DNA of 29,676 nt from IMG/VR virus record IMGVR_UViG_3300046804_004672, positions 1-29,676 of that record; one strand, given 5' to 3'. The position numbers and the translations under genes were made by a program. The notes under the pieces were generated by a model. The model had not been told where the DNA came from, did no database searches, and saw only the letters and a program-made list of their open reading frames with translations. Shown here in pieces: positions 8,501 through 26,223 of the stretch. This DNA comes from a virus. The number at the start of each line of letters is the position of its first letter. The stretch's first letter is position 1.

Positions 8501-9275
8501 GATCGTCTAAAATATCTTTAGCCGTTAAAATCGCAGAAATTTTCAAGCGGTCGGCACCAGGCCCTGCATAGTTAGTGGTGCCTAACGCAGGATCAAGAAG
8601 CGTCGCATCGTCGGCCGCGGTAACAATACTTTCAAGAATCGTGAATCCTACCCGCTTGCTTGGCGACTGGGATCCTGTATTCAAGATAATTGTTTGCTTG
8701 GGCACCTCGACTAGATGCCCACGCAAATAAAATACGCCTTTTTCTACTGAGAACGTGCTGGCAACGTTAGTAGCCGCAGTGCCAGGAGCCACGACCATTG
8801 TTGTGATCGCGTCACCCGTCGTGATATCCGAAAATTGCACACTTTCTTCTGGGTCAAATGAAGTGGCAGATAAAGGAGCAAACAAAATAGCCGCGTACGA
8901 TGACGTAGGTTGTTTGGATACTTGAATTACAATCGCACGAGCACCGCTTGTCAACCCTTCGGCTAACGCACCGACATTGGTTTCGGGATTAAAAAAGTTA
9001 TTGATATCAACCGCATCATTGCGTACCACTTGCAACACAACACCGTTGGTATCAAGCGTCTGTTGCCCGCCGCTGACCGCTGCACCTTCACGATAGACAC
9101 TGGATGTCACCTGCTCCACCTGATTTTGCAGGATAGACTGCACTTGATTCAGTTCTCGCGTCTGTACTGGTGTACGTGGTTTAATTAGCACCCGATGAAA
9201 CCGCTTGTCGCGGTCGTAATCATCCCAGTAAGGGCTGCTGCGAAGAATGTCCTGTGTCGTGTTTGATAGCGGCAT
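2595..9275 (-). CDS. Giant DUF4815-type baseplate/fibre structural protein
   Basis: 2226 aa. The N-terminus (FHRVLIKPRTPVQTRELNQ, then QSILQNQVEQ, residues about 28-55) is the signature start of DUF4815 proteins, large virion proteins of T4-like and other phages. Further hallmarks are the coiled stretch MKDIRTLEKRIENLEYY (about residue 1090), MRGIDVDIMSGGLLPGATL (about 1360) and DPLAQTFLI (about 1710). Between them lie Asn/Thr/Val-rich beta modules, including an SH3-like 'VGDVLVVNGERRKVVSI' unit near 360 and a GxGY repeat near 2050. It lies directly after gp8-like, where T4 has gp9-gp12, and probably provides peripheral baseplate and fibre-anchoring functions; gp9, gp10 or gp11 homologues are not otherwise visible. 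AGGAA lies 7 bases before the ATG and the gap to gp8-like is 12 bases. The domain assignment is firm, the position in the particle is inferred. Confidence 0.85.
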   Translation of the reverse strand: MPLSNTTQDILRSSPYWDDYDRDKRFHRVLIKPRTPVQTRELNQVQSILQNQVEQVTSSVYREGAAVSGGQQTLDTNGVVLQVVRNDAVDINNFFNPETNVGALAEGLTSGARAIVIQVSKQPTSSYAAILFAPLSATSFDPEESVQFSDITTGDAITTMVVAPGTAATNVASTFSVEKGVFYLRGHLVEVPKQTIILNTGSQSPSKRVGFTILESIVTAADDATLLDPALGTTNYAGPGADRLKISAILTAKDILDDRIATNSNTDFIEIARIVEGVIQPQPDRLQSTFIENTLARRTNDESGDYVVKPFRLLVKDHNPPLNIPNITGFVTGNATSPIIQGANIITTITLANGSTSNVTTLFESEIVVGDVLVVNGERRKVVSITSNTALVVNAAFTIEFTNTVATVVSADKLNIELEAGKAYVRGYEIETRGVSKIPVDRARTTQTVDNGTVSTGFGPYVIVTRDTGLFNINTMEQVDLHCVPFSNVNVNLVNATAGNYLSSKIGTARVRSFLYHSGIGDANTTYKMYLVGAEFQTKTFTVTGDANSNVQLTGVAKNLSAKTLTLTQNASSSSGGALPVGNHAFVGATVKLYTVDGYEVSYPVLASVDSSNTTTLRQHTLTLDSDDVLGTVNTTANVQVTFSDKCIRSMTNNANTKTKGTSVSIFGKVGYAANGNTVMQNTNATPLLFRYRGGVIEPNTITDENYEVLRYLGSVSGNDSVTTGNVVFTINSLTVALGTGEFPYPQSEDVFHYIVASLSSNGCPIPLNAAVADVDDYTIRMGVPNTAISGFTSPGTTTIDVYARMAVDSNGARTKTLYVGNTSLSSVGVNSLGMLISNTNNNKGHIAINSINTSSNRVVSLGIADVNAIKKIYAVKDANTISTNTSAVVDVTDNYQFDSGQRDWCYDFSSIELKAGKVHYTTNCSQLLVIVDRWAHSAATAGLGYFNPASYSGVAIEEIPVFVNSKNGDVKPLATHVDFRPVRTTNLASANTATNPYTSGTVTFDTTVLPYPMASYRADYEFYLPRVDKLVLTKDKRFRVITGTPAVDPQVPGDDPDGITLYVMSYPAYTPFANTVVVHPFEYRRYTMKDIRTLEKRIENLEYYAALSTMDLQSLNNPELDEYDNERFKNGIVTDNFSTDKVGNFKHRDMTVALDHENQQMRPRGVVRQKSLTVNPTGSSNVQEMGTGGSKLISLTYTQVPLVTQGLASKSININPFNVFSWIGSIRMFPSSDTWIDTITKPDLVVSLFNENDGIVDGETVSTSWNYWETSVTGSPTTEVSHWTGWKTGTTDPNNPHPDQEWARGTAGVREQEWLVTKTITPTTTTNYAQATFAHTKVSTITTDLGERVIDQSIAHKMRGIDVDIMSGGLLPGATLRATFDEIDVTNYMERANRITITDTNAATFQVGDIITTNGGATARIVGIVTNASTGTAYLYVTDARGAFAGATITSRQNPDALVGQTTVSGVSITGYDHWHGQAQQVTSNSPWTLRLGTGAVTTSDPYTGKIIHFTDGGYLRYVNLLDNTTPTVATSGVAGYMARITSYNPSTRDVVLEGLPGDVSAAFAQQFTSYTTDNPIRYSIGDLQTTGTGNTTASAVSPGSFFGMFRLPGMRQPTGAGANANMRVMSTDLQFNTGTRVFRLENITPNSLIESSARRQFSAQGTTVVKQKEIVRTRQTESWTTQGEITSSSSTTTNVDEDWEFIRYIDPLAQTFLISKEEYPNGVYITAVDLFFGKKGVTDMDVTVELRTTVNGVPSADTTLAKATVTAGNIKVVPTGVTPSPGNSSHYTRFTFDTPQYLAPNFEYAFVVLSNSNEYEVFVGELGKQLIGSSNIITQQPHGGVLFKSQNARTWVPEPLEDLTFVIHRAEFSMSQGTLALQLANNYSTLIDEIDYDLLYLGVDHLDFPATQQYTHYTLKTVNTSDVASSQVFTPNMTVAMSERKRIVEGHASSLQLTATLRTSNSHVSPVYDVERLSALLIKNMVDNGRLYANGVAFTAATPNTSASANYSTSGNSYALTVSGGNGTGAVLYANTNTTGYVTSIYVANAGYGYTETPTLAMASNTDFTATGQPTFTYVGETSGTSRVYGEQKARYLTLPITLADGFDAGDLKVYLSAVRAPQHNIDVYYRILATGDPQKFEEKPWTLMVLKEGQEELYSTSSAIRREYEYRTVDNKASYVSNGTTFDRFHTFAIKVVLRSSKTDSPYEVDTVNVPLISNLRIIALDE

Positions 9276-9287
9276 ACTATGTTCCTA

Positions 9288-11039
9288 TTAAAAAGTCAGT
9301 ATTGTACGAATGGCTTCTGATTGTGAATTAGCACGAATAACCGGCACGACATGATTCACATACAAAATTTCTCCGGTTTGAGGCAAAATATATGGGGGAG
9401 TTACGGCGGTTACAGTCGCCGTCGCGCCCGACGCCTCGACAATATTTGTAAACATCTCGGGGAGGGCAGAGGGCACATGATTATCGGATGCTAGTAGCAC
9501 GGCTTCGGTGTTGCCATTTCCAATACCAATAATGGTAGTATCTTCTACAGTTGTGGAAAATGGAATTCGTGAAACATGTACTAACTTTAATGTACCTCCG
9601 GATTGTTCAACCACTACTCCATATGCACCCGTATCTGGCTGATACACAACTTCATCTTTAGCAAACGTATCGGCAGTTGAAATAATTAATGTTGTAGACA
9701 AATCATACGTATTAGCCGACGCAATTTCTCCATTAATTAGTAATGGGTTTTTTACAATACCAATACGGCGATATTCATTTGCTGTTGTAATTAATCCTCC
9801 TTCCGCACCAGTCAGTTCTGCATACAGCATTACTTGATGCGCGTGAAGTTCGTGCCGAGGATTGATACCATGATTTGATTTGTAGTAAGTGCCACTAGTA
9901 TTACTAAATGCTGCGCGAGGAGAAATAATTGCAGTAGCCGCGGCTCCACTACCTGAGCTATGAGTTGTGATTGACACAGTGGCAAAACTATAATTTTGCC
10001 CATAGGCTTCCATGTGAATGCCGGTCACCACATTGCCCGTCAGTCGGACTGAAGCAATTGCGCCAGTACCGTCTCCATCAATCGTCACACTCGGTGGATT
10101 ATTTGGATTATAATCATGACCACCCGATTCAACTACAATTTGATAAATGGCCCCATTGCCTGAGTTACGCGCAGCATTAAAGACGGTATACGCGGCCGAG
10201 TTATCATCTTGCACATCGCCTGTGCCAGGATCAAGTGTATCACTTGAACAAAATACCGGCATATACTCAGCCGTCTTAAATTTTTGATCTGCTTCTTGGG
10301 ATATGGAATACAAATACTTCCATGTATAGAATTTGTTATTGTCTGCTTGTGACGTTACCAAATCGCTAGGAGACGCGACACCTGAAATTGTTGGTTCTTG
10401 AATGCTGATACCAATAGTTTCATCATCAGACGATGTACGACCATTAAAAATACATTTGAACACATCATTGGTGGACGTAACCACATACGGATACCCTAAT
10501 TCTGTATTGGCAAAATCCCCTGAAGTGCTACGATGGTCATACATCTGATAGATTGATCCGGTAGTCCACGTATAGCGCGGAACCACATATGCCACGTCGG
10601 TATCGCTTAATCGACGAAGTGCCAGTGCGTCTCGTAAGTAATCATATGACGCTTGTTCTGTATCTACCGGAATTTCGGGCGCGGCGTCCGATTCTGCCCA
10701 CGGCGTAGACCGACCAATAAACAAGTAGTACGTATCATATTGGGCGAGTTGTTCGCGGGTCTTAAATAATTGATCGCTGATCGCCGTAGAAAATGTGGCA
10801 TTAACAGTGACGGAGGTGCCATTGGAGGCGATAGCCGTAATAAGTCGGGACTCGTTATTGATAATCAAAATGTCACCGACACGCATTGTGCTGAACACAT
10901 TGCTTGATATGGTTAATACCGTGCTGTTGGCATTTACCGTTGCGGTATTCGCACCGTATGTACGCAATCCTTCAGTCAAGGATTCCACAAACTGCTGGGC
11001 GCCATGAATGTGGTATTTTTCAGTGGTAATAACCGGCAT
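9288..11039 (-). CDS. 8: Baseplate wedge protein, gp8-like
   Basis: 583 aa, longer than T4 gp8 (334). Residues about 100-210 carry the gp8-type core as it looks in marine T4-like phages: YDTYYLFIGRSTPW, then ALALRRLSDTDVAYVVPRYTW, then GSIYQMYDHR. An SH3-like insert (MRVGDILIINNESRLITAI) sits near residues 52-70, and two GxGY-type beta repeats lie near residues 300-360 (VESGGHDYNPNNPPSVTIDG), which may account for the extra length. In T4 gp8 dimers link gp7 to gp10 in the wedge. Gene order gp25-6-7-8 supports the call. An exact TATAAATA precedes the gene, and GAGGAGAT is a clear ribosome binding site. The 41-base gap to gp7 is among the widest in the minus block. Confidence 0.82.
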   Translation of the reverse strand: MPVITTEKYHIHGAQQFVESLTEGLRTYGANTATVNANSTVLTISSNVFSTMRVGDILIINNESRLITAIASNGTSVTVNATFSTAISDQLFKTREQLAQYDTYYLFIGRSTPWAESDAAPEIPVDTEQASYDYLRDALALRRLSDTDVAYVVPRYTWTTGSIYQMYDHRSTSGDFANTELGYPYVVTSTNDVFKCIFNGRTSSDDETIGISIQEPTISGVASPSDLVTSQADNNKFYTWKYLYSISQEADQKFKTAEYMPVFCSSDTLDPGTGDVQDDNSAAYTVFNAARNSGNGAIYQIVVESGGHDYNPNNPPSVTIDGDGTGAIASVRLTGNVVTGIHMEAYGQNYSFATVSITTHSSGSGAAATAIISPRAAFSNTSGTYYKSNHGINPRHELHAHQVMLYAELTGAEGGLITTANEYRRIGIVKNPLLINGEIASANTYDLSTTLIISTADTFAKDEVVYQPDTGAYGVVVEQSGGTLKLVHVSRIPFSTTVEDTTIIGIGNGNTEAVLLASDNHVPSALPEMFTNIVEASGATATVTAVTPPYILPQTGEILYVNHVVPVIRANSQSEAIRTILTF

Positions 11040-11080: not shown

Positions 11081-13891
11081 CTACCCACGGCTCGCCGTTG
11101 GGGCGCTCATAGTTAATACTAGTGCTTCTGGGTTGGAGACGGTCAATATCTGAGTTGTTTCATATGGGCTGATTGCTTGTATATTGTACATGTTAATGAC
11201 GGTTTCCGTCGTTACGCTCAGTGTAATTTCAGTTGGCACGGTTATCTGAGGTACAATCCACGATAATGATACCGAAGCAACGGTCAACGTGACACTCTCA
11301 ACTTGTGATTCTTCTTGGTTACTGACCGTAATCACCGCCGCCGGCATGACAATAGTTCTCAATAACGCACAGGTGACCGCAGGCGCCGTTAATGACACCG
11401 TTGTTGTAGATACCGGTATTTTCAGCAACTCAGTTTCTTCTTGATTAGTGACCGTTATTACCGCCGAATTAACATATACACCTAACGCAGTAGTAACGGC
11501 TCCGGGGGTCATCGCAAGTGTAGCACTAGGACTTAGTGTAACTCCTCTACTAATGGCCGCAGATGGTGCAGATACAGTAATAGTTTTACTGTTAGGCGGA
11601 ACTTCTGAGTCGGAATTAATCGTCAACGTCAAATCAATTCCGCCAAATGTTACGATTGACGTTAAATCAATTTCGGTGGTAATTGTTTGCCGTGGAAGTA
11701 ACAAACCACCGGCCGGATGTACCAATCGTTTTAATATCGTAGCATACCGAGACAAATCTTCTTCTACGGTCATGACATACGCAAACGGTTGATATTTTGT
11801 GATGTCTTGAAAATACTGGTCTGCGGACGTAAAACTGCGCGTATTACGGAAATACGGTTCTCCATAACTCAACGCACCAAGCGTCATCGATAATTCCGCA
11901 TCATGACCACTAGTAGTTGTTGACGTGCTGCTGTTGACGGTAAATGCTACATTACTGTATCCAGATCCACCTGTAATTACATCAACTTGACCAATTTGGC
12001 CCGTTTCTTTTTGTACAGACAGGAGCGCGGGATGAAATGCTTCACCAAAAATTTCTTCATAGGTAAGCGGTTCTGTTCCCGCCGCATCTGCCGTAGGTGC
12101 GACTGGCGTTTGAACCGCAACCGTTGGCAATGCTACAACATACCCCTGTCCAAAACTTTCAACCGTCACACTGAATATTTCGCCCAATTCTGTGCGAATA
12201 CCATTCACAAATACTGGATACGTGGAGAAGGTTGAAGTCAGCCCAACAATTGTCGTCTGAAGATTGGCACCATAAATTGCAGACGACGGATTGCTGCTCC
12301 ATGATACTTGGTTTAGTGTTATCGCGGCTTCTGATAGCAATTGACGACCATCCTCGGTCTGCAAGTCACTTCCCGTATTGCCATCACCTTCAAGTAATAA
12401 TCCTCCAAACAAATCGGACAACGACACACCGACTTCATAGTAGTCAATTTTTTCGCGACTGGCTTCATACTCCAATCCATCGGCTTCGAAGGTAAATGTA
12501 AGAACGTCACCATTAGTTACACCATTTGCGTTTGGTGTATCGGCGTTAATTATTAAATTGCCAGGAGAAACCGCCGAAACGTATCCCGACAGACCATAAC
12601 CGCCACCCGTACCAGTATTATCAACAATTAAAGGTAATCCTGTATAGTATCCTAATCCTGCGTCATCAATATTCAATTCGTTCAAATCTACGTCGGTAAA
12701 TTTAGCAATGCGGCCTACACCACCAAATCCACCCGTGGCAACCACTCCATTGGCATATCGTGCGGGAGGATACACTAATTCACCTTCATTGTATCCGGCA
12801 CCCCGTTGATTAATGATAAACCCCGTGATTGATCCTAAGAGTTGCCCCGTAATAGCGTCGGGGTCATTGGTCGGTACCGTCGAGATAGTTTCTCCCGCCT
12901 GAAATGTGGTGGCGGTCACAAATTCTTGAATAAGATTATACGTATAAACGGTATCGGCTAACCCTTCGGGGGGTACACCATATTTGGTCGCAACAAGAAC
13001 CCCTGTCCCATCTTCTAATTGTATTCCACCCAATTCTTGCGTAATAACAGGATCGCTAATAAACAATCGTACTACCCGACGATTACCTTCAAAGGCTTGC
13101 ACGCCTTGCAACACTGTCGCGTGAGCATTACTAGATAATCCAACAATCTCTCGCGTTTCAATTAGCGCGACGTTACCTGTTACTGAAGCGTCGGTATCAT
13201 AGTCTAACCGAAGAATTGTTGGCTTGACCCATTCGTTGTCGGAAGTCGTAAAGACGGATTCGCGAGGATATGAAAATTCTACTTCTTTGCCATATAACGA
13301 GCGAAATAAAAATTGATACGAGGCTTCACTACCACGCGATTGATAAAAATCAAGAATACGTGGAATCAATACACTAGTGTTTGTTAGTCCCTGTGGAATC
13401 TCCCGCAGGTACGTGTCACGAAAATATGTGACGAAATCGGCTAACGTGTGCTCCACATCATGCACCGTCAATATTTGCCGAATGGCCCCCGAGGCTTGAC
13501 GAATGGATTTATTCGTTTCAACCGTGTGGGTATTCGCAAAATACGAACGAATGGGCACCTCATACACAATTAAATGGTCGTTATTGGCAATACTACGAAT
13601 ACGAAACTGGTCGCTTCCTACCCGAAATTGTACATTGTTGGCATAAATTTCAGTATTACTAAACTGAGTACCTCCGCCAATAATTGTCGAATTCCCAGAC
13701 CGTACGGTGACAACCCCCGGCTGAAGCGTATACGTTGATGTGACAGGTTTATCGTCGTATTGTTCTAAAAACTCATAGTATGCTTTGACAAATGAGACAA
13801 ACGCCGGATATTCTGACTCTACAAAGTCAGGGATAATATCGCGAATACGTGTGCTCAGGCGATGATGAACATCGTTGGCAAAGTGTGCCAT
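11081..13891 (-). CDS. 7: Baseplate wedge protein, gp7-like
   Basis: 936 aa. Residues about 18-45 (IPDFVESEYPAFVSFVKAYY followed by EFLEQYDD) and about 180-220 (ILDFYQSRGSEASYQFLFRS, then LYGKEVEFSYPRE) match the T4 gp7 C-terminal half, whose corresponding segments I recall as a FEAFCEAYIQYL helix and a KGIEASYKFLFKVLY motif. A further match is LKRLVHPAGGLLLPRQ near residue 735 (T4 has a RFVHPVGFGF motif). The large N-terminal part of T4 gp7 is absent; instead there are SH3-like and GxGY modules between the core motifs and a repetitive beta-rich tail from about 760 to 936. In T4, gp7 with (gp6)2 and gp53 forms the wedge core. Position between gp6 and gp8 homologues agrees. GGAG lies 11 bases before the ATG. 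Confidence 0.78.
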   Translation of the reverse strand: MAHFANDVHHRLSTRIRDIIPDFVESEYPAFVSFVKAYYEFLEQYDDKPVTSTYTLQPGVVTVRSGNSTIIGGGTQFSNTEIYANNVQFRVGSDQFRIRSIANNDHLIVYEVPIRSYFANTHTVETNKSIRQASGAIRQILTVHDVEHTLADFVTYFRDTYLREIPQGLTNTSVLIPRILDFYQSRGSEASYQFLFRSLYGKEVEFSYPRESVFTTSDNEWVKPTILRLDYDTDASVTGNVALIETREIVGLSSNAHATVLQGVQAFEGNRRVVRLFISDPVITQELGGIQLEDGTGVLVATKYGVPPEGLADTVYTYNLIQEFVTATTFQAGETISTVPTNDPDAITGQLLGSITGFIINQRGAGYNEGELVYPPARYANGVVATGGFGGVGRIAKFTDVDLNELNIDDAGLGYYTGLPLIVDNTGTGGGYGLSGYVSAVSPGNLIINADTPNANGVTNGDVLTFTFEADGLEYEASREKIDYYEVGVSLSDLFGGLLLEGDGNTGSDLQTEDGRQLLSEAAITLNQVSWSSNPSSAIYGANLQTTIVGLTSTFSTYPVFVNGIRTELGEIFSVTVESFGQGYVVALPTVAVQTPVAPTADAAGTEPLTYEEIFGEAFHPALLSVQKETGQIGQVDVITGGSGYSNVAFTVNSSTSTTTSGHDAELSMTLGALSYGEPYFRNTRSFTSADQYFQDITKYQPFAYVMTVEEDLSRYATILKRLVHPAGGLLLPRQTITTEIDLTSIVTFGGIDLTLTINSDSEVPPNSKTITVSAPSAAISRGVTLSPSATLAMTPGAVTTALGVYVNSAVITVTNQEETELLKIPVSTTTVSLTAPAVTCALLRTIVMPAAVITVSNQEESQVESVTLTVASVSLSWIVPQITVPTEITLSVTTETVINMYNIQAISPYETTQILTVSNPEALVLTMSAPTASRG
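11100..11620 (-). repeat. Degenerate beta repeats in the gp7-like C-terminus
   Basis: The last 160 or so residues contain approximate repeats: VITVTNQEETELL, VITVSNQEESQVE and ILTVSNPEALVL, each separated by 'VSLTAP'-like strands. Copies are about 45 residues apart and diverged at DNA level. No equivalent is known to me in T4 gp7. They may be a stalk or carbohydrate-binding-like beta array. Confidence 0.6.
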
Positions 13892-15848: not shown

Positions 15849-16259
15849 TTACCGTAAGCGGCGTAGCAACACGCCCGTTGTAATAAGATTTGGCAAATTT
15901 AAGACCTTGACCGCAATTTCAATCCATAACGTGTTCGCATCAAGATACTCGCCTGTCGGTTTTTTATCAAAATAGACATCAATATGTTGCAATTCCACTC
16001 GACGTTCAAATTGACGAATCGTGTCTCCAATGTTCTTGACCAGCACAGTTGTGGTGACTTTATCCAATGGCTCAAATAACATGCGATTGACCGTGCCACC
16101 CAATCCAGGCTGAAATAGACGTTCACCTACCGATGTCAACACTAACAAACGCAATGATTGCTTAATCGATTCCTCATTTTCTACTTTCATCAAATCCGCA
16201 GTGATAGGATCCGGAAGAAACGAAATGTCAAAGTCGCTGTATAAAGTTTGAGTTGCCAT
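15849..16259 (-). CDS. 25: Baseplate wedge protein gp25 (lysozyme-like fold)
   Basis: 136 aa, matching T4 gp25 (132). The family core is clear: NEESIKQSLRLLVLTSVGER near residue 28, LFQPGLGGTVNRMLFEP (about 49-65) with the conserved FEP of the 'EPR-type' loop, then LVKNIGDTIRQFERRVEL. gp25 sits in the inner baseplate next to gp6 and gp53 and marks where the sheath begins; the same fold is in type VI secretion TssE. The gene opens a gp25-6-7-8 block. The 38-base gap upstream holds a TAAATA box exactly 5 bases before the ATG and no obvious Shine-Dalgarno. Confidence 0.93.
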   Translation of the reverse strand: MATQTLYSDFDISFLPDPITADLMKVENEESIKQSLRLLVLTSVGERLFQPGLGGTVNRMLFEPLDKVTTTVLVKNIGDTIRQFERRVELQHIDVYFDKKPTGEYLDANTLWIEIAVKVLNLPNLITTGVLLRRLR

Positions 16260-16297: not shown

Positions 16298-18007
16298 CTA
16301 ACTGGGCGCACCTTTACCCCCACCACTTCCACCATTACACGGCCATTTACTCGTCCACTTGGGATCAATGACATTTGCGGAACTACAACGACGAGGATCG
16401 GCAGAACCAGTTTCCGAGCATTTTGAATTATATGCGTTTTCAATACGCGCCAACCAATATCCTTGCCATCCAATAACCCACCGACCGTCACTGAGTGTGT
16501 CGGGTTTTGATGAGTAGCCAACCCAACCATCCACACTAAACGGTTCGCCTGAGCATGATAATGCGGCACGACCTTCTTCGGTATCAATATCAATCGGTCT
16601 ACCGTCAGGAAGCCGTAATGCGGCGTCGTTGTAAATATCATTACGAATTGCTTGACGTAGATATCCGGGGTCAATACTAATTCCCGGAGGCAATTCCCAA
16701 TAATACGGATTGGTAGGATCTGTGCCTGGTGCAGGGAAAACAACTCCTTCACACGCACCACCACCGCCACCATCACTTGAACCTCCAGCACCCGCGCTCG
16801 CGCTCAAAATACTAACAGGTTGTTCCTGCGGAAGTTGAGTATCCAACCCCACTGGCTGTAACCGTTGTTGTCGTTCTGCCAACATATCCAAAAGTTTTGT
16901 GCCCGCTTCTATATTTCGCTGGGCTTGGGTATCCGTACCAGTTGAAGGTTGATAGATGTGCAGCCCATCTACAAAGGTGTCATTAAATGTTTTGGTTTGC
17001 ACTTGGCGCCGGCGTGCGTCAATACTGAATGACACATGAATCCATGCTTGACCACCCCCCGAGATGTCATAGCATAAAATTAGTTGGTCGTATAAGATAT
17101 TATCTCGCATCCATCGGGCTAATTGATATAACGATGAGGCAGCGGCTAATGACCCATCCCCGACCGTAATGTCTATGGCTTCACCTCGCTCGTGTTGAGA
17201 CGTTCCCGTAGTTTCTGAGCGGAATCCTTCTAAAATATAAGGGACACCTAATCCTGAAGATTGGGCGTAATTTCGTGTTGGCGCATACACATTTTCGGCC
17301 AACAATGTTAACCGATACATAATCTCATCTTCCAACAAGCCAGATTGTGGGTATAGTCGTTCTTCTGGAGTACTAATTACCACATATTTAACCGCTTTTT
17401 CTGCGGTAGTTTTTTCTTTACTGTCTAATGTATATTTGGTGGCTTTTGGATTAAAAAATCTTGGAGAACTAACTAAAGCGGATGCAGTTTTGAATTCACG
17501 CGGTAGCGTTGGAATCCCCGCACCCAATGGAGCACCCGATACCAATGACTGCGCAACAGACCGAGCGACCGTTTCAGACAATGATTTTCCTGCCGCACTA
17601 GCAGACGCAGATAATCCCTCTTTCAACGGTCGCCGAATATTATCTGGATTTGATTCCTCAACAATCGACACACCAAGCGCGGCACTACTGGCGGCTTTTG
17701 TGGCAGTACCTATTCCACCCGTTAATTTTTTTCCACCAAATAATTTGAACTTCCCGAGAACTTTTCCCGCAATCGCTCCCCCGACTGGACCCAAGGCGGC
17801 TTTTAAGCCAATGGATATCGCCTGCGATTTTAACGATGCAGTAAGATTTCCCTTAAGTTTATTCGCAAGTTTACCGAGTTTACTTGACGCAGGATTATTC
17901 TTCGAGAAACTTAACGATTTGGGCGGCCGACCAGACGCCAGTAACTCGGCGGTATCGCGCACGTCCCGAAACGCAAATTTTTTCTTTCCGCTTGTATCTA
18001 CCGCCAT
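16298..18007 (-). CDS. Virion M15-type zinc peptidase (peptidoglycan-cleaving, putative)
   Basis: 569 aa. The catalytic region shows the M15 (D-Ala-D-Ala carboxypeptidase/endolysin-like) zinc pattern: SQHERGEAIDITV with His272 and Asp279 as two ligands, and WIHVSF with His324 as the third. The upstream segment (ILEGFRSETTGTS) is also typical. This enzyme would cut peptide bridges during penetration. Residues 60-112 are Gly/Ala/Lys-rich and amphipathic (KAALGPVGGAIAGKVLGKFK), perhaps membrane-active. After a Gly/Ser linker near 400-415 a Cys-containing C-terminal domain (about 415-555) is unassigned; it has WVGYSSKPDTLSDGRWVIGW. It starts 3 bases after the spike gene's stop, with GGTAGGAT just before the ATG. 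Domain call firm, substrate inferred. Confidence 0.78.
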   Translation of the reverse strand: MAVDTSGKKKFAFRDVRDTAELLASGRPPKSLSFSKNNPASSKLGKLANKLKGNLTASLKSQAISIGLKAALGPVGGAIAGKVLGKFKLFGGKKLTGGIGTATKAASSAALGVSIVEESNPDNIRRPLKEGLSASASAAGKSLSETVARSVAQSLVSGAPLGAGIPTLPREFKTASALVSSPRFFNPKATKYTLDSKEKTTAEKAVKYVVISTPEERLYPQSGLLEDEIMYRLTLLAENVYAPTRNYAQSSGLGVPYILEGFRSETTGTSQHERGEAIDITVGDGSLAAASSLYQLARWMRDNILYDQLILCYDISGGGQAWIHVSFSIDARRRQVQTKTFNDTFVDGLHIYQPSTGTDTQAQRNIEAGTKLLDMLAERQQRLQPVGLDTQLPQEQPVSILSASAGAGGSSDGGGGGACEGVVFPAPGTDPTNPYYWELPPGISIDPGYLRQAIRNDIYNDAALRLPDGRPIDIDTEEGRAALSCSGEPFSVDGWVGYSSKPDTLSDGRWVIGWQGYWLARIENAYNSKCSETGSADPRRCSSANVIDPKWTSKWPCNGGSGGGKGAPS

Positions 18008-18010
18008 ATC

Positions 18011-21000
18011 CTACCTATACCAGTCTGACCCAGTGCCGGGCGCACACACAGGAAGCCATTGAATTTTAGCCTCAGGGCTTACGGCGCTGGAAATAATATC
18101 CACACCCTGCGCAATTTTTCCGTTATACAATGGTGTGGTACTCTTATACAAAATCGCGTCAACCGCATGACCATTGTATTGGGTCTGCGCACCTGATTTT
18201 CTAATGTGCCCCCATTTATCAGGCAATGCGTTTACTACCGCTTCAACAAATACACCGCAGCCCGCGAGCGTTGAAAGATTGAAATTACCATTTCTGAATA
18301 TCTCTTCAATTTTTGCAAATTCATTTGGTATAGTTGAATCAGGCGCACCGCAATCTCCATCTGCACCGCCTGCTCCGCCTACTCCACCCGAGCCACTTTT
18401 CAACATAGACGCATTAATTTGAGGCACTTCAACTACAGGACTGGTAAAGTTCACCATCATATCAGCAAGACGCAATCCACTATACCCAAGTGACGCACTA
18501 TCGCTATACTTAAATTTACCAAAAAATTCCTGCATTGGACGTACACGATATACCTGCAATGCCCCAGATTGAGTGCCAAATTTCCACGGTTCTGTTAAAA
18601 CTAATGATGTATCCGATGCAATTGACTGAATGACGGCTTTATTGTCGCCAATTATAATTGTAAGACCTTCTTCCAAATCTTCCGTAAATTTAGTTCCGAC
18701 TCCGGTAATAATATTATTGTTTGTAACACACCGAACAAATCCCCCAGATGGTAAATTAAACGCATAGGGCGGTGGGGGTTCTGGTAGTGGAGAGGTCGTG
18801 TCAGATTGCACAATTGTGCCAGGAGAAGTTTTTGCAGTAGCAGAATAATCTCCTAATTCCACACTAAGATTACTGTGAGTGCTATAACTTTCTCCATTAA
18901 TATCCTCGGGGGTATCAAATGTGCGTCCTCGCAATTTTGCATATACAATAGGAGAAACGACCGCAGCACCGGTCGCGGCGGTCGCGGCTAATGTCGCCGC
19001 CGAACTATACAATTTAGGATTAGATAATGGCAGTTCCCCAGGCTGCTCCGTGAGTTTTGAAAATGCAGGCTCACCAGTCGCATCCAACGCAGTATTTGCG
19101 AGAATTGATGCCATTTTTGCTTGTGCGACCGAGGGAGTAATTTTTCCATCTTTAACTTGCTTGGTCAAATCGCTCATACTTTTTTGACCTATTGCCGTCA
19201 ATGGCATTTTTAACGTCGGAACAAATATAGGTGGAATTGAAGGCGCGGGATATGGTGCTATGTTGGTAGGAATCGACATTATAGGCATACCACCCGGTGA
19301 CATCCCACCAATATCCACCTTTGGTGAATTTAGGAAAATGTTTTTCGAGGCTTTCATCTCAATATCATCTGCGGATATTTTCAATTTGCCTTTAACATTA
19401 AATGCCGCACCATCTTTCGCATCAATAACCAATTCCCCTTTACGAACATGTAACGTATACCCACCCTCCACCACAATATTCCAATCACCGGCGACATACA
19501 CATCATGATCACCGATTGTGATATCTTGGCGTTTTTTTACTGTCTTATATTTGACTCCCCCATCAGGTCGCATTTCAATGTGTGACCCAGAGCGATGGTA
19601 AACATGCACCCGTTCTGCGCCGGGAGAATCATCTACTTCAATAAGATGACCCGATTCCGATTCCATTAATACTGTATTAAATGGATACTGTGGATTATAG
19701 GACGGAGCATCTTCTTCCATAGATGCTGACCCAGAACCAAACAACGTTGCCGCAATAGGACCGCCGGCCGCAACAGCGGCCGATAATGATGACGTGGCGG
19801 TAGAGGTGGATTTAGCCGCCGCCATCAAAACTTTGGCTGTTGGAGGAATACTTTGGGGTTGTCGAAATACACGAGTATTCTTTTTTAATTCAGCGGGAGT
19901 AGTATCAGTTGAACTTTGAGCACCAGTGGTAAGTGGTGGTACCTCCACTGGTGGGAGCGATAGTCCCGGAGTTAAGCCAGTTTCAAGGTCAATTTGTCCT
20001 AATGGTAAAAATTCAGAAATCTTAAATGTACGATTTGAGGGCACTACGACAGGAAATGAATTTCCTGACAAATCGTATTCCAATGCCAATCGTGACTGTA
20101 TTGGTGTGTAGCCATTCCACACTACATAGGCTTGCTGTCTCGCGCTGTTCCACGCAACTAGTCGATCGACACGGCACGTGGGTGACACATCTTGCCCAAT
20201 TGTCCAATCCCCGCGTGTTGTTGCAAGTCCAATTTTGATATATCCATACCATTCATATCGATGCTCATCCGTGGGAATGGGTTCACCATATTCGTCAAGA
20301 TCCAACATACCTTGAGAACCAAATGAAACAAAACCCGACGTGGTTATCGTATCAATTAATTGAAGATTTGTGTCTAGTCGAGCACGACGATATGCTTCAC
20401 CAGGCGTACCGCCACCCCCCGCATATACCCACGTCACTTCCCAAACAGGATCGTTAATTGTGGTCAATGGATCTGGGCGAATGGCAACACAATGAATACC
20501 ATGTGCGACTTCTCCCCCATCCCACGTATTCCCGAGTGAATCTTTAACAAAGACGTTACCTGAGCCGTTGTCGCCTACTTGTGCTACTACTGCGGTCACG
20601 CCGTATTGCCATGCACCGCGAATATAATTCCCACCACCATTTGGAAACCATTCTTTACTAGAAATAACTTTAGAAAATCCCTGACCTGAGCCATCTGGAT
20701 TACGGCCAATCGTAATGACATCCGAACCAATGACGGGTGCGGAGGAATTTTGTAGCGCCGCCGCATCTTCTAGTGTATATCGTTCCCCTTCGTTCGAATA
20801 CAAAAAATATTGAGTGCCCGATGTATTAATTGTATACCGCCGAATATGATTGAACGCTTCTCCTTCACTGTAACTGGTAACAACATAAATTTTACCATCT
20901 GGTGTAACCCGAATATCACCATTAAAATCTCGGTCTCCAGTTACAACTTGGTATGCGTATAATTTTCCAAATTCAAATGCTACTAAATCAAGTCCATTTA

Positions 21001-21652
21001 GATGCCAACCAAGTATCCAATTTCCATCATTTTGCCCAAATAAAACAGGAACATTAGTTGAATCAAATCGGTCATTTTCAATATCATACCGAGTAAGTAA
21101 CCCATTAGCATTATATACAACAACACCGTTTCGAATACCAGCATTTCCTTGATCCAACGTATCTGTAGTAATTAAAACCACATCATCCGCGCTTGCTGCG
21201 GTTGGTGGTAAATATCCTAATCCATATCCATATTCGCGATTTAATACGACAAGCACAGTGCCATCATCATCTACACCCATTAGCCCATAATCAGGATGCG
21301 TTCGACCCAATGAGTCGTAATATCCCACATGGTCTAACCATGCCGCCCACACACCTCCACCCGCACGAGTGAAGTTTGCTCCTTGTGTTGAAACTCTATT
21401 GATAGCCCCAGTCCGAATATCATAGGTATATAAACTACACCCCGGCGTATAGTCCGGATTATCTGGAGTTTGGCATGATTGAAATACCAGTGTCCACGGA
21501 TTGACCCACGACGTATCTCCGCCAATAATTGGTTGCCCAATTAATTCGGGATACAACGGATGGGAAGTCCATGTGAGTAAATTCCCGTCGTAGGATATAG
21601 GTAATAACCCTATACCCATGGCAACTTTATATTGAGTGCTTAGTCGCGGCAT
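18011..21652 (-). CDS. 5: gp5-type central spike protein with propeller-like N-terminus and Cys/His C-terminal domain
   Basis: 1213 aa, twice T4 gp5 (575). Residues about 1-580 consist of repeated strands such as DGTVLVVLNREYG, NGVVVYNANGLLTRYDI and RVTPDGKIYVVTS, suggesting a beta-propeller. Residues about 650-790 are the gp5C/VgrG-type needle: NTVLMESESGHLIEVDD, HVYHRSGSHIEMRPDG, then DITIGDHDVYVAGDW and KLKISADDIEMKASKNIF. Residues about 970-1020 form a GTKF/SH3-like module. The last 90 residues have a Cys/His pattern (GCGVFVEAVV with Cys1132, YNGHAVDAILY with His1162). The OB fold of gp5 is absent here but encoded by the gene just upstream, and no lysozyme domain is visible. It probably forms the trimeric membrane-piercing needle under the gp27 hub. 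It starts 1 base after the OB gene's stop. Confidence 0.82.
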   Translation of the reverse strand: MPRLSTQYKVAMGIGLLPISYDGNLLTWTSHPLYPELIGQPIIGGDTSWVNPWTLVFQSCQTPDNPDYTPGCSLYTYDIRTGAINRVSTQGANFTRAGGGVWAAWLDHVGYYDSLGRTHPDYGLMGVDDDGTVLVVLNREYGYGLGYLPPTAASADDVVLITTDTLDQGNAGIRNGVVVYNANGLLTRYDIENDRFDSTNVPVLFGQNDGNWILGWHLNGLDLVAFEFGKLYAYQVVTGDRDFNGDIRVTPDGKIYVVTSYSEGEAFNHIRRYTINTSGTQYFLYSNEGERYTLEDAAALQNSSAPVIGSDVITIGRNPDGSGQGFSKVISSKEWFPNGGGNYIRGAWQYGVTAVVAQVGDNGSGNVFVKDSLGNTWDGGEVAHGIHCVAIRPDPLTTINDPVWEVTWVYAGGGGTPGEAYRRARLDTNLQLIDTITTSGFVSFGSQGMLDLDEYGEPIPTDEHRYEWYGYIKIGLATTRGDWTIGQDVSPTCRVDRLVAWNSARQQAYVVWNGYTPIQSRLALEYDLSGNSFPVVVPSNRTFKISEFLPLGQIDLETGLTPGLSLPPVEVPPLTTGAQSSTDTTPAELKKNTRVFRQPQSIPPTAKVLMAAAKSTSTATSSLSAAVAAGGPIAATLFGSGSASMEEDAPSYNPQYPFNTVLMESESGHLIEVDDSPGAERVHVYHRSGSHIEMRPDGGVKYKTVKKRQDITIGDHDVYVAGDWNIVVEGGYTLHVRKGELVIDAKDGAAFNVKGKLKISADDIEMKASKNIFLNSPKVDIGGMSPGGMPIMSIPTNIAPYPAPSIPPIFVPTLKMPLTAIGQKSMSDLTKQVKDGKITPSVAQAKMASILANTALDATGEPAFSKLTEQPGELPLSNPKLYSSAATLAATAATGAAVVSPIVYAKLRGRTFDTPEDINGESYSTHSNLSVELGDYSATAKTSPGTIVQSDTTSPLPEPPPPYAFNLPSGGFVRCVTNNNIITGVGTKFTEDLEEGLTIIIGDNKAVIQSIASDTSLVLTEPWKFGTQSGALQVYRVRPMQEFFGKFKYSDSASLGYSGLRLADMMVNFTSPVVEVPQINASMLKSGSGGVGGAGGADGDCGAPDSTIPNEFAKIEEIFRNGNFNLSTLAGCGVFVEAVVNALPDKWGHIRKSGAQTQYNGHAVDAILYKSTTPLYNGKIAQGVDIISSAVSPEAKIQWLPVCAPGTGSDWYR

Positions 21653-21653
21653 A

Positions 21654-22037
21654 TTATACGTTCATCTCCGGAAATTTAGAAAACTGCGGGACTTGAATCA
21701 CTTCTTTGACACGAGCACCGGGTAATACACCAAGCATCACTGGTTGTTGGGCAATTTGTCCATCGAGAAAAAACCCAAGCACCCATGACGACTCTTCGGG
21801 AGATTTGACTCCGTGGGGATTATTCAATGGCGCAAGAGGTAATGCCCACGGTAAATCTTCTTTGGGAAGCAAAGTCTGATCGGAGGTGTGGTAACCGAAC
21901 ACACGCACTCTTGCGCGGCCTAATTTCAGTGGATCATTGCGATCTTCAACGACCCCAATCCACCAAAAGAAACCATTCTTCCCCATGTAGTCGTGGGCGC
22001 TGATAGTGCCCAGTCGAAGTGATTCATTGAGTTCCAT
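21654..22037 (-). CDS. Free-standing gp5 OB-fold hub protein
   Basis: 127 aa, the same size as the OB-fold domain of T4 gp5 (about 129). The text GFFWWIGVVEDRNDPLKLGR followed by ARVRVFGYHT is the gp5_N signature, and WALPLAPLNNPHGVKSPEES and WVLGFFLDGQIAQQPVMLG complete the barrel pattern. In T4 this domain docks the spike to the gp27 torus. Here it is its own gene, between gp27-like and the needle gene. The C-terminus ends in a short tail (FSKFPEMNV) and the stop is one base before the spike ATG, so translation is probably coupled. An AATAAATA box lies exactly 5 bases before its ATG, overlapping the gp27 stop. No Shine-Dalgarno is visible. Confidence 0.85.
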   Translation of the reverse strand: MELNESLRLGTISAHDYMGKNGFFWWIGVVEDRNDPLKLGRARVRVFGYHTSDQTLLPKEDLPWALPLAPLNNPHGVKSPEESSWVLGFFLDGQIAQQPVMLGVLPGARVKEVIQVPQFSKFPEMNV

Positions 22038-22042
22038 ATGAG

Positions 22043-22050
22043 TATTTATT
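22043..22050 (-). promoter_or_regulatory. TAAATA box 5 nt before the OB-fold gene
   Basis: The minus strand reads AATAAATA, then CTCAT, then ATG at 22037. It matches the T4 late consensus at all but the first two positions and overlaps the gp27-like stop codon. Spacing is the same as before 16259 and 2580. Confidence 0.42.
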
Positions 22051-23422
22051 AGGACGCCGCAAACGAATCAGTCACAGCTTCAAACGTCGTTTCATAGAAG
22101 AATCCACGGCGACCATCCGCAACAATACTATGTTTGGCATTAATGATAATGTATCGGCCTGATGCCAAATCCTTGAATGGTGTGCCTGTATTTTTGTTAT
22201 TCAGTGGAGTCGGAAATTCCACATCAATAAAACTACCCGCATGTAATTCAGGAGCACCAGCAACGCGGCCGCGAATACAGCGTGATTGTAATCCGAGCAA
22301 CTCCCGATTGCGCCCGTCTAATGTTTGCGCAATAAAGTTATCCGTGATGGTAGAGTCTTTACTCGTCAGTTGGGTATTGGCCGCGCTGAATGCCGTAGTA
22401 GGCACCACAAATATACGAGCCGTCGGTGGTGTATTCAATCCTAATTCTTTAGGATAAATGTCGCGTCCATTCGGGTTGACGCGCAACCGACGATCATACG
22501 CACCATCCCATCCCGCACCAGAAATTTCTACACCACAGACACCTGATAGGACATCTGGAGCAATGGTTGTAGATGCAAAATATCCTCGGGACATGGCATA
22601 CAAAATATCAAACCCCGAAATAACTTGTAATTGTTCGGCTTTGATACGAGTGCGGGTATTACCAACTTCACGCTGACCCGCCAAATCCAAATATATGGTC
22701 GGAATTTTTGTATTACGCGCCGCAATCTGCAACAATCGACCAAACGACGTATAGTGATACCCTTCCAACGTTTCAAAAAACAAATAATTAGTTTCGTTTG
22801 TATCAGATTGTCCCTGTAACGTCAGCAATTGAATGACCTCTAACGGTCGCATGTATGGCACTACTAATTTAATCGGTCGCTTAGTTGTTTGCCGTTCAAC
22901 AAAAGTTTTCTTACTAGACAATCCGTAGGGCTGCTCTACAATATCTTTAATAATGTCCTCGGGTTTTTTGTTGACGTATGACCGTGAAATTTTTCGCACG
23001 GTTGACGCAATTAATTCAGGACTACAAATACCTAACGCAAATTCTTCACTGGCTTTATTGACAGGTGAACGATTAGATTGATTGTATATGGCAAATGGAA
23101 ACGGCCCAAATTTACGTTGGTCTAGATTTTCTTTATCGCGCATACTAAACTGCAACCATAATTGGTCTAACCCGCGCATTAATGCCAAATTAGTCAAGGC
23201 TTGCGTGTCACGAAAATATACTTCGCCCGTCAATGCGGGCGAAAACATATTCTCAAAAATATCAATCCGATTAACGTAGGTGCGTACATCATCCAGTATG
23301 TCTTTAATTTTTTGTTCGTCGCTATTTTTTGGATTGAGTAGATACGGCGACAGAATTTGAAGTCGATCAACGGAGACGGTTTTATCGGCTGCGGGAGACA
23401 GACTAACGGGTGGAGTTGACAT
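22049..23422 (-). CDS. 27: Baseplate hub protein, gp27-like (gpD family)
   Basis: 457 aa, somewhat longer than T4 gp27 (391). The layout fits the hub/gpD family: an N-terminal tube-like barrel (YVNRIDIFENMFSPALTGEV, residues about 48-67), a central part with RPLEVIQLLTLQGQSDTNET and YLFFETLEGYHYTSFGRLL (about 190-230), and a C-terminal barrel ending YIIINAKHSIVADGR and FYETTFEAV. The trimer would form the pseudo-hexameric torus joining tail tube and spike. It overlaps gp53-like by 20 bases and has a strong GGGGAG 8 bases before its ATG. The next gene downstream is the OB-fold partner it would bind. Confidence 0.82.
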   Translation of the reverse strand: MSTPPVSLSPAADKTVSVDRLQILSPYLLNPKNSDEQKIKDILDDVRTYVNRIDIFENMFSPALTGEVYFRDTQALTNLALMRGLDQLWLQFSMRDKENLDQRKFGPFPFAIYNQSNRSPVNKASEEFALGICSPELIASTVRKISRSYVNKKPEDIIKDIVEQPYGLSSKKTFVERQTTKRPIKLVVPYMRPLEVIQLLTLQGQSDTNETNYLFFETLEGYHYTSFGRLLQIAARNTKIPTIYLDLAGQREVGNTRTRIKAEQLQVISGFDILYAMSRGYFASTTIAPDVLSGVCGVEISGAGWDGAYDRRLRVNPNGRDIYPKELGLNTPPTARIFVVPTTAFSAANTQLTSKDSTITDNFIAQTLDGRNRELLGLQSRCIRGRVAGAPELHAGSFIDVEFPTPLNNKNTGTPFKDLASGRYIIINAKHSIVADGRRGFFYETTFEAVTDSFAAS

Positions 23423-23987
23423 TATTCAATCTCCCCATCAACTGTTCAAATTGCCGTAAAAACGATTGGAATGTATCCGGCAATAATCGTTTAATGTCGC
23501 GTCGTTTATCGTTTAATCCATTTTCATAGTCGTATACCGATATTTCGCGGCGCTCATATAATGGTGTGGCACTGTACAACGTCTCATCAATTACTAACTC
23601 CTGACCTGTGTCGGGATTTTTCCACAGATATTGATACACGGTATCTTGACTTTGTTCCACGCCATCGTTAAGACCAGGCACAGACTCATATTTTTTGGCC
23701 ATATAATGATGAAATTCCAAGTTGTTCATAGGCCAGTCATAAAGATCTCGCATATTATTAGACAACATGACCACCCACGAATATCGAGAATCCCCATACC
23801 ACTGCGCCGCCAATAAGTCAGCACGGTCTCGGTCTTGTATTTTATACCACTCATACGCACCCAATTCGGTAATAGATTGCAACCGTACCGTCATATTAGG
23901 CACAGTACGAAGAATTTTTTGCGGCAATCCATTTTGAATTTCCGTGGTGCGATAGGTGAGCGTAGGAAAATATTGAAAGTATCGCAT
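23403..23987 (-). CDS. 53: Baseplate wedge protein, gp53-like
   Basis: 194 aa, almost exactly T4 gp53 (196). Residues 1-12 (MRYFQYFPTLTY) and the central block (YKIQDRDRADLLAAQWYGDS, RYSWVVMLSNNMRDLYDWPM, about 46-90) are characteristic of the gp53/LysM-like family, with Y-G-D and WPM as landmarks. gp53 binds gp6, gp7 and gp25 and helps lock wedges around the hub. The 9-base gap upstream reads TTAATTCAT with no Shine-Dalgarno. Its last 20 bases overlap gp27-like and carry that gene's ribosome binding site, so the two are coupled. Confidence 0.87.
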   Translation of the reverse strand: MRYFQYFPTLTYRTTEIQNGLPQKILRTVPNMTVRLQSITELGAYEWYKIQDRDRADLLAAQWYGDSRYSWVVMLSNNMRDLYDWPMNNLEFHHYMAKKYESVPGLNDGVEQSQDTVYQYLWKNPDTGQELVIDETLYSATPLYERREISVYDYENGLNDKRRDIKRLLPDTFQSFLRQFEQLMGRLNNVNSTR

Positions 23988-25043: not shown

Positions 25044-25490
25044 ATGGCATTAAAAGGACGCTTCTTCCCGCGCAACCCGAGCAAATATTTAGGGAATCCG
25101 AATAACATTATCTTTCGGAGTGCCTGGGAACGCACCTTCATGGAGTACTGCGACACCCACGCAGACATTCTTCAGTGGGCCTCGGAAGAACTCACCGTGC
25201 CGTATTATTTTACGGGCGATAGTAAGTGGCATCGCTACTACCCTGACTTCATCATCAACGTGCGCACCAAGGCGGATGAGAAACAAACATGGATGGTCGA
25301 GATTAAACCGTCAGCACAAGTGCAGTCGCCTGTTAATAAACGGTATGCCAACAAGCGTCGTCAAATTCGTGAGACGATTGAGTATGCCAAAAATCAAGCA
25401 AAGTGGACGGCCGCCAAATCATTCTGTTCCAACAAGGGATGGAAGTTTGTTGTCATCACCGAAAAGGAACTGTACCCTAATGGCCGATAA
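25044..25490 (+). CDS. 4: Head completion protein gp4, PD-(D/E)XK nuclease-like
   Basis: 148 aa, matching T4 gp4 (150), which stabilises filled heads and allows head-tail joining. The start MALKGRFFPRNPSKYLGNPN and the WERTFMEYCD stretch fit T4 gp4 closely. The TnsA-like nuclease pattern is complete: Glu29, Asp68 in YYPDF, and Glu86-x-Lys88 in WMVEIKPSAQ. The chosen ATG gives the family N-terminus; a Shine-Dalgarno is weak (GGAG about 16 bases upstream). It is the first plus-strand gene; the next ATG lies 11 bases inside its end. T4 keeps gp4 near gp2 and gp53, and here gp53-like is two genes away on the other strand, so neighbours are kept but orientation has changed. Confidence 0.9.
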   Translation: MALKGRFFPRNPSKYLGNPNNIIFRSAWERTFMEYCDTHADILQWASEELTVPYYFTGDSKWHRYYPDFIINVRTKADEKQTWMVEIKPSAQVQSPVNKRYANKRRQIRETIEYAKNQAKWTAAKSFCSNKGWKFVVITEKELYPNGR

Positions 25491-26223
25491 CTTTCTCGAC
25501 CTACTCATTCAGCATTATTTGCGCGGAGGACGCGACACGACTGCACTCCGAGGTCAACTTCATGAGCAGCAACCGGCACGGGTTACAGGACGCGCCACGA
25601 CCCCTAAACCGCTTCCTAATCAACTCGGGGTGTCCGTCGTCCCGATGACGGGTATGATGGGGAACAACCCCGCGACCAAAGCAAGCGGAAGTGCGATTGC
25701 GTGGGCACAGAACATCACCCAAGTGCTTGGGCAAATTGACCCAGACGACCAGACAGACATTGTTGACCGCTATGGCAAGTTTAAGAGCATGTTTGTTGAT
25801 GGCAAACAAATGATTCCTGGCATGTTTTACAGTTTTAGTTATCGAGCCAAAACCACGAATCAATACGACATGTTTCCATTGGTGTTGGTACTTGACCGTA
25901 CACCCACCAGTGTATTAGCCATGAATTTTCATTATCTTCCCCCGAAACTTCGGTTTGGCTTGTTTGAGTCCATGATGCCGTTAATCGCGCCGCTGCCCGT
26001 CTTTCAATTGAGTCGCATATTCCTGACCTATCAACAGTTGACGAAACGTCGCATGGTTGGCAAATTACCTACGATTAAACGGTACAACTATACCCACATA
26101 CGCGGGCGAGCATTGTTCATTTCCCCGCTCGAATGGGCGGTAGCCTTGGCGTATCCCAGTGAGCGGTTTATCGGGACGACCTCCACAAAAGTCTGGACGG
26201 AGAGTCGTCGGAATCTTTCCTAA
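25480..26223 (+). CDS. gp2-like DNA end protector-type virion protein (tentative)
   Basis: 247 aa, starting MADNFLDLLIQHYLRGG at an ATG inside the gp4 stop region (11-base overlap; AAGGAAC lies upstream). The frame stays open further upstream, to a spurious start at 25120, but that part would overlap gp4 fully, so the internal ATG is preferred. The conserved-looking block is residues about 105-240: PGMFYSFSYRAKTTNQYDMF, FPLVLVLD, MNFHYLPPKLRFGLFESM, IKRYNYTHIRG and EWAVALAYPSERFIG, ending VWTESRR. I have seen this pattern in T4-like phage proteins labelled DNA end protector (gp2), and T4 gp2 (274 aa) also neighbours gp4. The family name is from memory, so the function is tentative; a head-tail or DNA-packaging-related virion protein is the safe reading. 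Confidence 0.6.
   Translation: MADNFLDLLIQHYLRGGRDTTALRGQLHEQQPARVTGRATTPKPLPNQLGVSVVPMTGMMGNNPATKASGSAIAWAQNITQVLGQIDPDDQTDIVDRYGKFKSMFVDGKQMIPGMFYSFSYRAKTTNQYDMFPLVLVLDRTPTSVLAMNFHYLPPKLRFGLFESMMPLIAPLPVFQLSRIFLTYQQLTKRRMVGKLPTIKRYNYTHIRGRALFISPLEWAVALAYPSERFIGTTSTKVWTESRRNLS

Follow-up and report, generated by a model that had tools for sequence, protein, structure and literature searches.

How much of a phage's cell-puncturing spike has to be carried on a single chain? The gp5 protein of phage T4 serves as the textbook example of a cell-puncturing protein, with a single chain and one proteolytic cut treated as its defining design. We sought to characterize a locus in an uncultured T4-like phage, the IMG/VR virus record IMGVR_UViG_3300046804_004672, whose 29,676 bases are referred to here as the window. 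An earlier note had read positions 18011 to 22037 as a gp5 cut at the level of the genome into an OB-fold gene and a spike gene, with the lysozyme missing, a propeller-like region of about 580 residues in its place, and a hub built from two chains. From our examination, the cluster at 16298-22037 is probably a T4-like gp5 that has been broken into three genes, having lost its lysin and gained a propeller. This reading is put forward because the OB protein, the needle, and the M15-like core of the cluster are each homologous to parts of one chain elsewhere.

Three genes with the parts of one gp5 chain

The features that carry this reading are as follows.

21654..22037, minus strand: stand-alone gp5-type OB-domain protein, 127 amino acids (aa); phrog_430, T4 gp5, and Pfam Gp5_OB matches
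18011..21652, minus strand: spike protein, 1213 aa, with propeller module, needle, and C-terminal region; open reading frame (ORF), profile, and T4 gp5 matches
19283..19726, minus strand: spike residues 643-790, gp5 needle head and short octad beta-helix; phrog_430, T4 gp5, and periodicity
18014..19282, minus strand: spike residues 791-1213, C-terminal extension past the needle; present in 5 sequences of alignment A2
16298..18007, minus strand: third hub gene, 569 aa, with an Ala/Gly-rich N-terminal region and an M15-like peptidase core; phrog_894, BLASTP, and hhalign
17009..17383, minus strand: M15-like core, residues 209-333 of the third gene; H272, D279, and H324 invariant across all 5 aligned clade proteins

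The OB pattern that had been seen in the small protein was recovered by its matches to the phrog_430 profile (positions 12-110, E 6.7e-32) and to residues 5-102 of T4 gp5 (E 2.3e-11); its match to Pfam Gp5_OB (E 9e-4, 19.9 bits) lies under the curated cut-off of 25 bits. Spike residues 643-738 match phrog_430 321-415 (E 7.9e-31) and residues 614-731 match T4 gp5 344-461 (E 9e-13), and residues 690-790 display a hydrophobic period of 8, with a peak at lag 8 that was matched by 1 of 5000 shuffles. Needle homology and octad period were thus found at 643-790, where the earlier note had placed gp5 needle repeats at about 650-790. Judged by eye, the octad helix seems shorter than T4's eleven VXGXXXXX repeats. 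A small tail-fibre-type domain was noted past the needle, in residues 977-1031 (phrog_1980, E 6e-8). No lysozyme profile in PHROGs or Pfam matched the OB or spike protein, and none matched the other window proteins scanned (20 with Pfam). Together with an all-beta model of the spike N-terminus, this upholds the claim that the lysozyme is missing from both proteins.

A single base (21653) separates the OB ORF from the spike ORF, both on the minus strand, and ORFs and profile matches agree with the description of a 127-aa OB protein one base upstream of a 1213-aa needle protein without an OB domain. In all 11 clade contigs that show both the OB stop and the ORF after it, the OB domain is its own ORF; one of these contigs matches the window at 100% identity across the spike, and several of the rest are near-copies of each other. 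Between the window and the relative L023, the OB (nonsynonymous over synonymous divergence, dN/dS, 0.051/2.36) and the needle (0.06/1.96) are under purifying selection, with dS near saturation. Because the OB is separate in all of these contigs and both parts are under such selection, the split is no sequencing slip, and the cut is genomic, as had been claimed.

The third gene extends this picture. In BLASTP, its residues 209-333 aligned with residues 737-852 at the C-terminal end of L016, a one-chain gp5, at E 2e-19, 38% over 125 columns, and a profile-profile comparison by hhalign of the M15-like gene family with the fused-gp5 C-terminus gave 99.1%. With its homologue at the C-terminal end of fused gp5, this downstream gene would bring the hub to at least three chains, and the two-chain hub of the earlier note has to be given up.

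Gene arrangements among close relatives

The clade was assembled by scans with the OB, spike, propeller, and M15 sequences. Three features of the spike N-terminal portion are compared in it.

20792..21640, minus strand: spike residues ~5-287, beta-propeller-like domain; AlphaFold2 model and VIA structural matches
19955..20743, minus strand: spike residues 304-566, conserved all-beta region; alignment A6 and a low-confidence model
19838..19879, minus strand: spike residues 592-605, junction motif NTRVFRQPQSIPPT; comparison with clade ORFs

Gene order was the same in the clade loci that reach across the gp5 region, and the partition into ORFs varied. The window, the contig nearly identical to it, and L023 have propeller and needle in a single ORF. 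Propeller and needle occupy two ORFs in contigs of the L028 type (802 and 700 aa; three contigs, one with the needle cut by the contig end) and of the L026 type (572 and 707 aa; two contigs). L034/L010 and L043 lack the propeller, and in L002 its position is occupied by a 281-aa ORF (hhalign probability against the propeller 5.8%, E 0.0065). In a 22-row tree, on which the labels "SGNH" and "TG" for L015/L016 were assigned by eye and not by profile, the clade was united at 100/100, with L043 outermost and L026 next, and the window, L023, and L028 formed a trio.

The propeller had been taken as a module filling the lysozyme's place. Since relatives such as L034 and L043 lack both, and others carry the propeller as its own gene (L028, L026) or a different ORF in its position (L002), it does not appear to be a simple lysozyme stand-in, and lysozyme loss and propeller gain appear to be separate events. 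On the simplest reading, we infer that the three-way split was ancestral to the clade and that the propeller arrived as a separate gene, later fusing to the needle in the window lineage. Needle ORFs carry the junction motif (NTRVFR...IPPT) close to their start in L026, L009, and L034. L028 has it toward the end of its propeller ORF instead, a hint that this arrangement came from splitting a fused ancestor anew. That ORF (3548-5953) finishes with a 137-residue domain that shares 76.6% identity with the terminal part of the L026 M15 ORF (8447-10081; E 4e-77), and a domain has thus moved between hub chains.

A further question is whether the propeller belongs to the hub mechanism at all. Its occurrence as a separate ORF in L028 and L026 and within one ORF in the window and L023 hints, by a Rosetta-stone argument, that propeller and needle work together. 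It could instead be dispensable cargo or a decoration gene fused by chance to the needle in this lineage, as suggested by its absence from L034 and L043 and by the unrelated-looking ORF in its place in L002. Nothing at E<=1 was found for it among 50,697 phage records, and no relative was confirmed in a genome-contig pattern scan, which may miss divergent relatives. However, the propeller always lies between OB and needle in the contigs that have it, it is kept intact at ~42-57% identity along its length, and its fusion to the needle is found in both the window and L023, so that we consider chance cargo somewhat unlikely.

Split and fused gp5 in a wider survey

An OB-alignment scan confirmed at least 584 relatives among 600 pattern matches, and the best 80 were analyzed, being those most similar to the window OB and not a random sample (L051 is the contig of L002). 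Fused and split versions, which the earlier note had proposed to look for in relatives, were both found: OB and needle share one ORF in 40 of the 80 loci and lie on different ORFs in 26 (20 clusters at 90% OB identity), with 14 not classifiable for reason of a contig end or no detected needle. Given these 26 split loci and at least five state changes on a 98-row tree (84 rows scored, 51 fused and 33 split; a quick method, with long branches present), the gp5 split appears to be recurring and not a one-off. In 36 of the 40 one-ORF cases, only 49-89 residues separate the OB and needle matches, a gap that is too small for a T4-type lysozyme. To judge from these sequences, the missing lysozyme and the genomic split are both recurrent among relatives.

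The split loci differed in layout. In some, an OB-only ORF of 97-130 aa comes first, in most cases with an ORF of 199-382 aa between it and the needle; in others, OB and a middle module share one ORF (295-374 aa) and the needle has its own. One helical-looking middle module was common to 24 sequences by single-linkage BLAST, as its own ORF in 10 and joined to the OB in 14. Helical-looking modules of 199-382 aa between OB and needle were observed in L054, L057, L060, L062, L084, L086, L107, and others. A genomic gp5 split was not found in the open-licence literature searched, which does not show that it is unpublished; the available part of one study describes gp5 of pelagimyophages as divergent and spread over various protein clusters (PMC7029224).

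A bolder proposal is that the spike has become a set of separate, exchangeable chains (OB, middle module, needle, and tip peptidase) that swap modules, and that the needle propeller recognizes a surface glycan during envelope passage. If true, recognition would be borne by the puncturing device itself. We regard this extension as unlikely.

The M15-like gene

The best PHROG match of the 569-aa protein is phrog_894, an endolysin (E 1.4e-7), and the protein possesses an H-x6-D ... H pattern at H272, D279, and H324, putative zinc ligands by the motif of M15 families. Among the related proteins scanned, the best M15 Pfam score was that of Milchi (22.2 against a 23.2-bit cut-off). The profile of alignment A5 gave weak hedgehog-family matches in PDB (E >=0.2), which were not used as evidence. 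The PHROG match would suit a lysis endolysin. Yet wherever a locus extends far enough, the gene is found between spike and gp25, and the sequences homologous to it are C-terminal ends of fused gp5 or PAAR fusions, which makes a lysis role quite improbable and leaves the gene as a probable detached part of gp5. A transmembrane N-terminus was also considered for this gene and rejected, the best 19-residue Kyte-Doolittle mean being 1.37, below the usual transmembrane threshold of 1.6.

The N-terminal module of the spike protein

The propeller module had no significant sequence match in Pfam, PHROGs, or PDB sequences. An AlphaFold2 model of spike residues 1-604, built from six aligned sequences, reached a mean predicted local distance difference test score (pLDDT) of 51.9, with ten-residue blocks over ~31-220 mostly at 60-89. 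When residues ~5-287 of this low-confidence model were compared by VIA, the best match was the PLL5 lectin (Z 12.8, root-mean-square deviation 4.0, 228 aligned), and all 50 matches listed are, as we take them to be, beta-propeller proteins or complexes containing one. Residues 304-566 modelled alone gave a pLDDT of 53.6 and reached Z >=8 in 1 of 992 chains (best 8.3). A beta-propeller-like, all-beta fold is therefore tentatively supported by modelling for residues ~5-287, so that the propeller-like region of about 580 residues would stand for its first half and not for 304-566. The suggestion that residues 1-600 are neither a lysozyme nor a short linker is in keeping with the all-beta, in its first half propeller-like, model.

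The top structural matches comprise lectins, WD40 proteins, and peptidase propellers, all within ~1 Z, and no function can therefore be deduced from them. Glycan-active proteins are present among them (oligogalacturonate lyase, GH74, and GH43), which might suggest that the propeller is itself a wall- or glycan-degrading enzyme in the lysozyme's stead. This is very improbable, as non-enzymatic matches (lectins, WD40) are equal or better within that tie range and the module matched no catalytic family in PHROGs or Pfam. Most likely, though weakly so, the propeller would serve as a host-surface contact, perhaps to glycan, or as a spacer within the three-gene spike.

A proposed hub and the points that weigh against it

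Under the three-gene reading, three OB chains would form an adapter ring under a gp27-type trimer. Below this ring, three spike chains would wind into the beta-helical needle, and their propeller modules would surround its base in the position of T4's lysozyme. The M15-like protein would be the wall hydrolase carried by the tail, located close to the needle tip or the hub; it is placed near the tip because it is C-terminal to the needle in one-chain gp5s and sits on PAAR in Milchi and Lauda. Translation coupling at the one-base OB/spike junction might provide matched doses of the two chains. That the junction also yields a single chain by ribosomal frameshifting or stop read-through is nearly excluded, for although the ORFs almost touch and the stop-T-ATG layout recurs in L004, L005, and L006, a stop in the spike frame lies 4 codons ahead of the ATG, the OB frame is closed 8 codons past the OB stop, the room for any frameshift is 3 codons, and OB and next ORF are 15-48 bases apart in L009-L011.

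Several observations count against a gp5 in three genes with its lysin lost. The window M15 core matches Pfam weakly (VanY, E 0.088, 13.0 against a 25-bit cut-off), and the core profile (alignment A3) found no M15 or peptidase structure in PDB. Of 7 fused gp5s, two (L013, 1468 aa, and L020, 1107 aa) no longer have the three conserved H/D/H residues, and for this reason the M15-like C-terminal domain may be structural in some phages. The clade shows no conservation in the stretch that aligns with the T4 maturation site. As the window is a 29.7-kb fragment, a lysozyme or PAAR protein could be encoded elsewhere in the genome.

Neighboring genes

The cluster lies within a minus-strand T4-like baseplate block in the order gp53-like, gp27-position, OB, spike, M15-like, gp25-like, gp6-like, wedge, and gp8-like.

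23403..23987, minus strand: gp53-like wedge; Pfam Phage_gp53 E 4.5e-7 and syntenic context
22049..23422, minus strand: gp27-position hub protein, 457 aa; phrog_350 "tail protein" E 1.1e-47
15849..16259, minus strand: gp25-like wedge; Pfam GPW_gp25 E 1.8e-12 and downstream syntenic context

The 457-aa hub protein was assigned as the gp27 equivalent by gene order. Elsewhere in the block, a 2226-aa protein (2595-9275, minus strand) has a very strong match to phrog_358, of unknown function, and a DUF4815 match (E 1.4e-67). The 936-aa wedge protein (11081-13891, minus strand) has longer relatives in L037 and L038 (1158 and >=1305 aa), which contain additional partial copies of the 730-934 region. 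A gp2-like ORF (25120-26223, plus strand) overlaps a gp4-like ORF (25044-25490), and its real start is probably downstream of the called start, since its profile match spans residues 222-364 only.

Implications for the gp5 design

The data indicate that the covalent link from OB to needle has repeatedly been lost or regained, that the slot between them varies (lysozyme, GH19, helical module, propeller, or nothing), and that the terminal peptidase can also leave the gp5 chain. Such loci are natural experiments on which gp5 parts need one chain, and separate chains would be easier to express and assay. Many such genes are misnamed when annotated as "baseplate hub and tail lysozyme".

Comparison with known systems

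In T4, gp5 is cut at Ser351/Ala352, between lysozyme and needle, to give the mature hub (gp27-gp5*-gp5C)3, and the OB is the adapter between gp27 and the needle (PMC3004832). The T4 OB and needle are homologous to those of the window and likewise end up on different chains. Because the mature T4 hub is already of this composition, separate genes could replace the proteolysis, and would fix genetically a chain break like that of the T4 cut. The idea of a genomic cut in place of the T4 one therefore stands for the break itself but not for its position: T4 has one gene cut after the lysozyme, whereas the window has separate genes with the break directly after the OB. Unlike T4, the window also lacks the lysozyme and has the extra propeller and a 420-aa region past the needle.

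Among isolates, phage Melnitz (MZ577098) likewise has gp5 as two adjacent genes: an annotated "OB domain protein" (346 aa, OB and VanY-like) ends where a 667-aa needle and M15-like protein starts. Its break differs from that of the window in following an OB and VanY-type lysin chain, a T4-like place, with M15 still on the needle and without a propeller. The accessible portion of the Melnitz paper (PMC9004378) does not mention the gp5 split.

One-chain relatives run in the order OB, GH19 or transglycosylase-like lysin, needle, and M15-like end, and fused gp5s match Gp5_OB, GH19 or transglycosylase, and M15_3 (several under Pfam cut-offs). In L012, L016, L018, and L020 the OB, needle, and M15-like parts are homologous to the three window chains, but they form a single chain of 878-1107 aa, in which OB and needle are separated by a lysin of GH19 or transglycosylase type.

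In Pseudomonas phages, PAAR and M15-like fusion proteins were encountered directly after or near gp5 (L049:4383-5387 and L050:4458-5465). The Pseudomonas phages Milchi and Lauda resemble the window in having the M15-like domain in genes past gp5 and ahead of gp25; they differ in carrying it on a PAAR tip protein, whereas the window has no PAAR match. The annotated peptidase M15 gene after gp5 in phiM19 was rejected as a homologue of the window's, its match being at chance level, and is a positional parallel only.

Spikes without lysozyme have precedents. The central spike of A-1(L) has none, the enzyme having moved to the hub protein gp15 (PMC10966104), and the gp5 spike of P1 has none, the enzyme being on the tape measure (PMC9024508). 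OB and needle stay on one chain in both phages, whereas in the window they are carried by separate genes.

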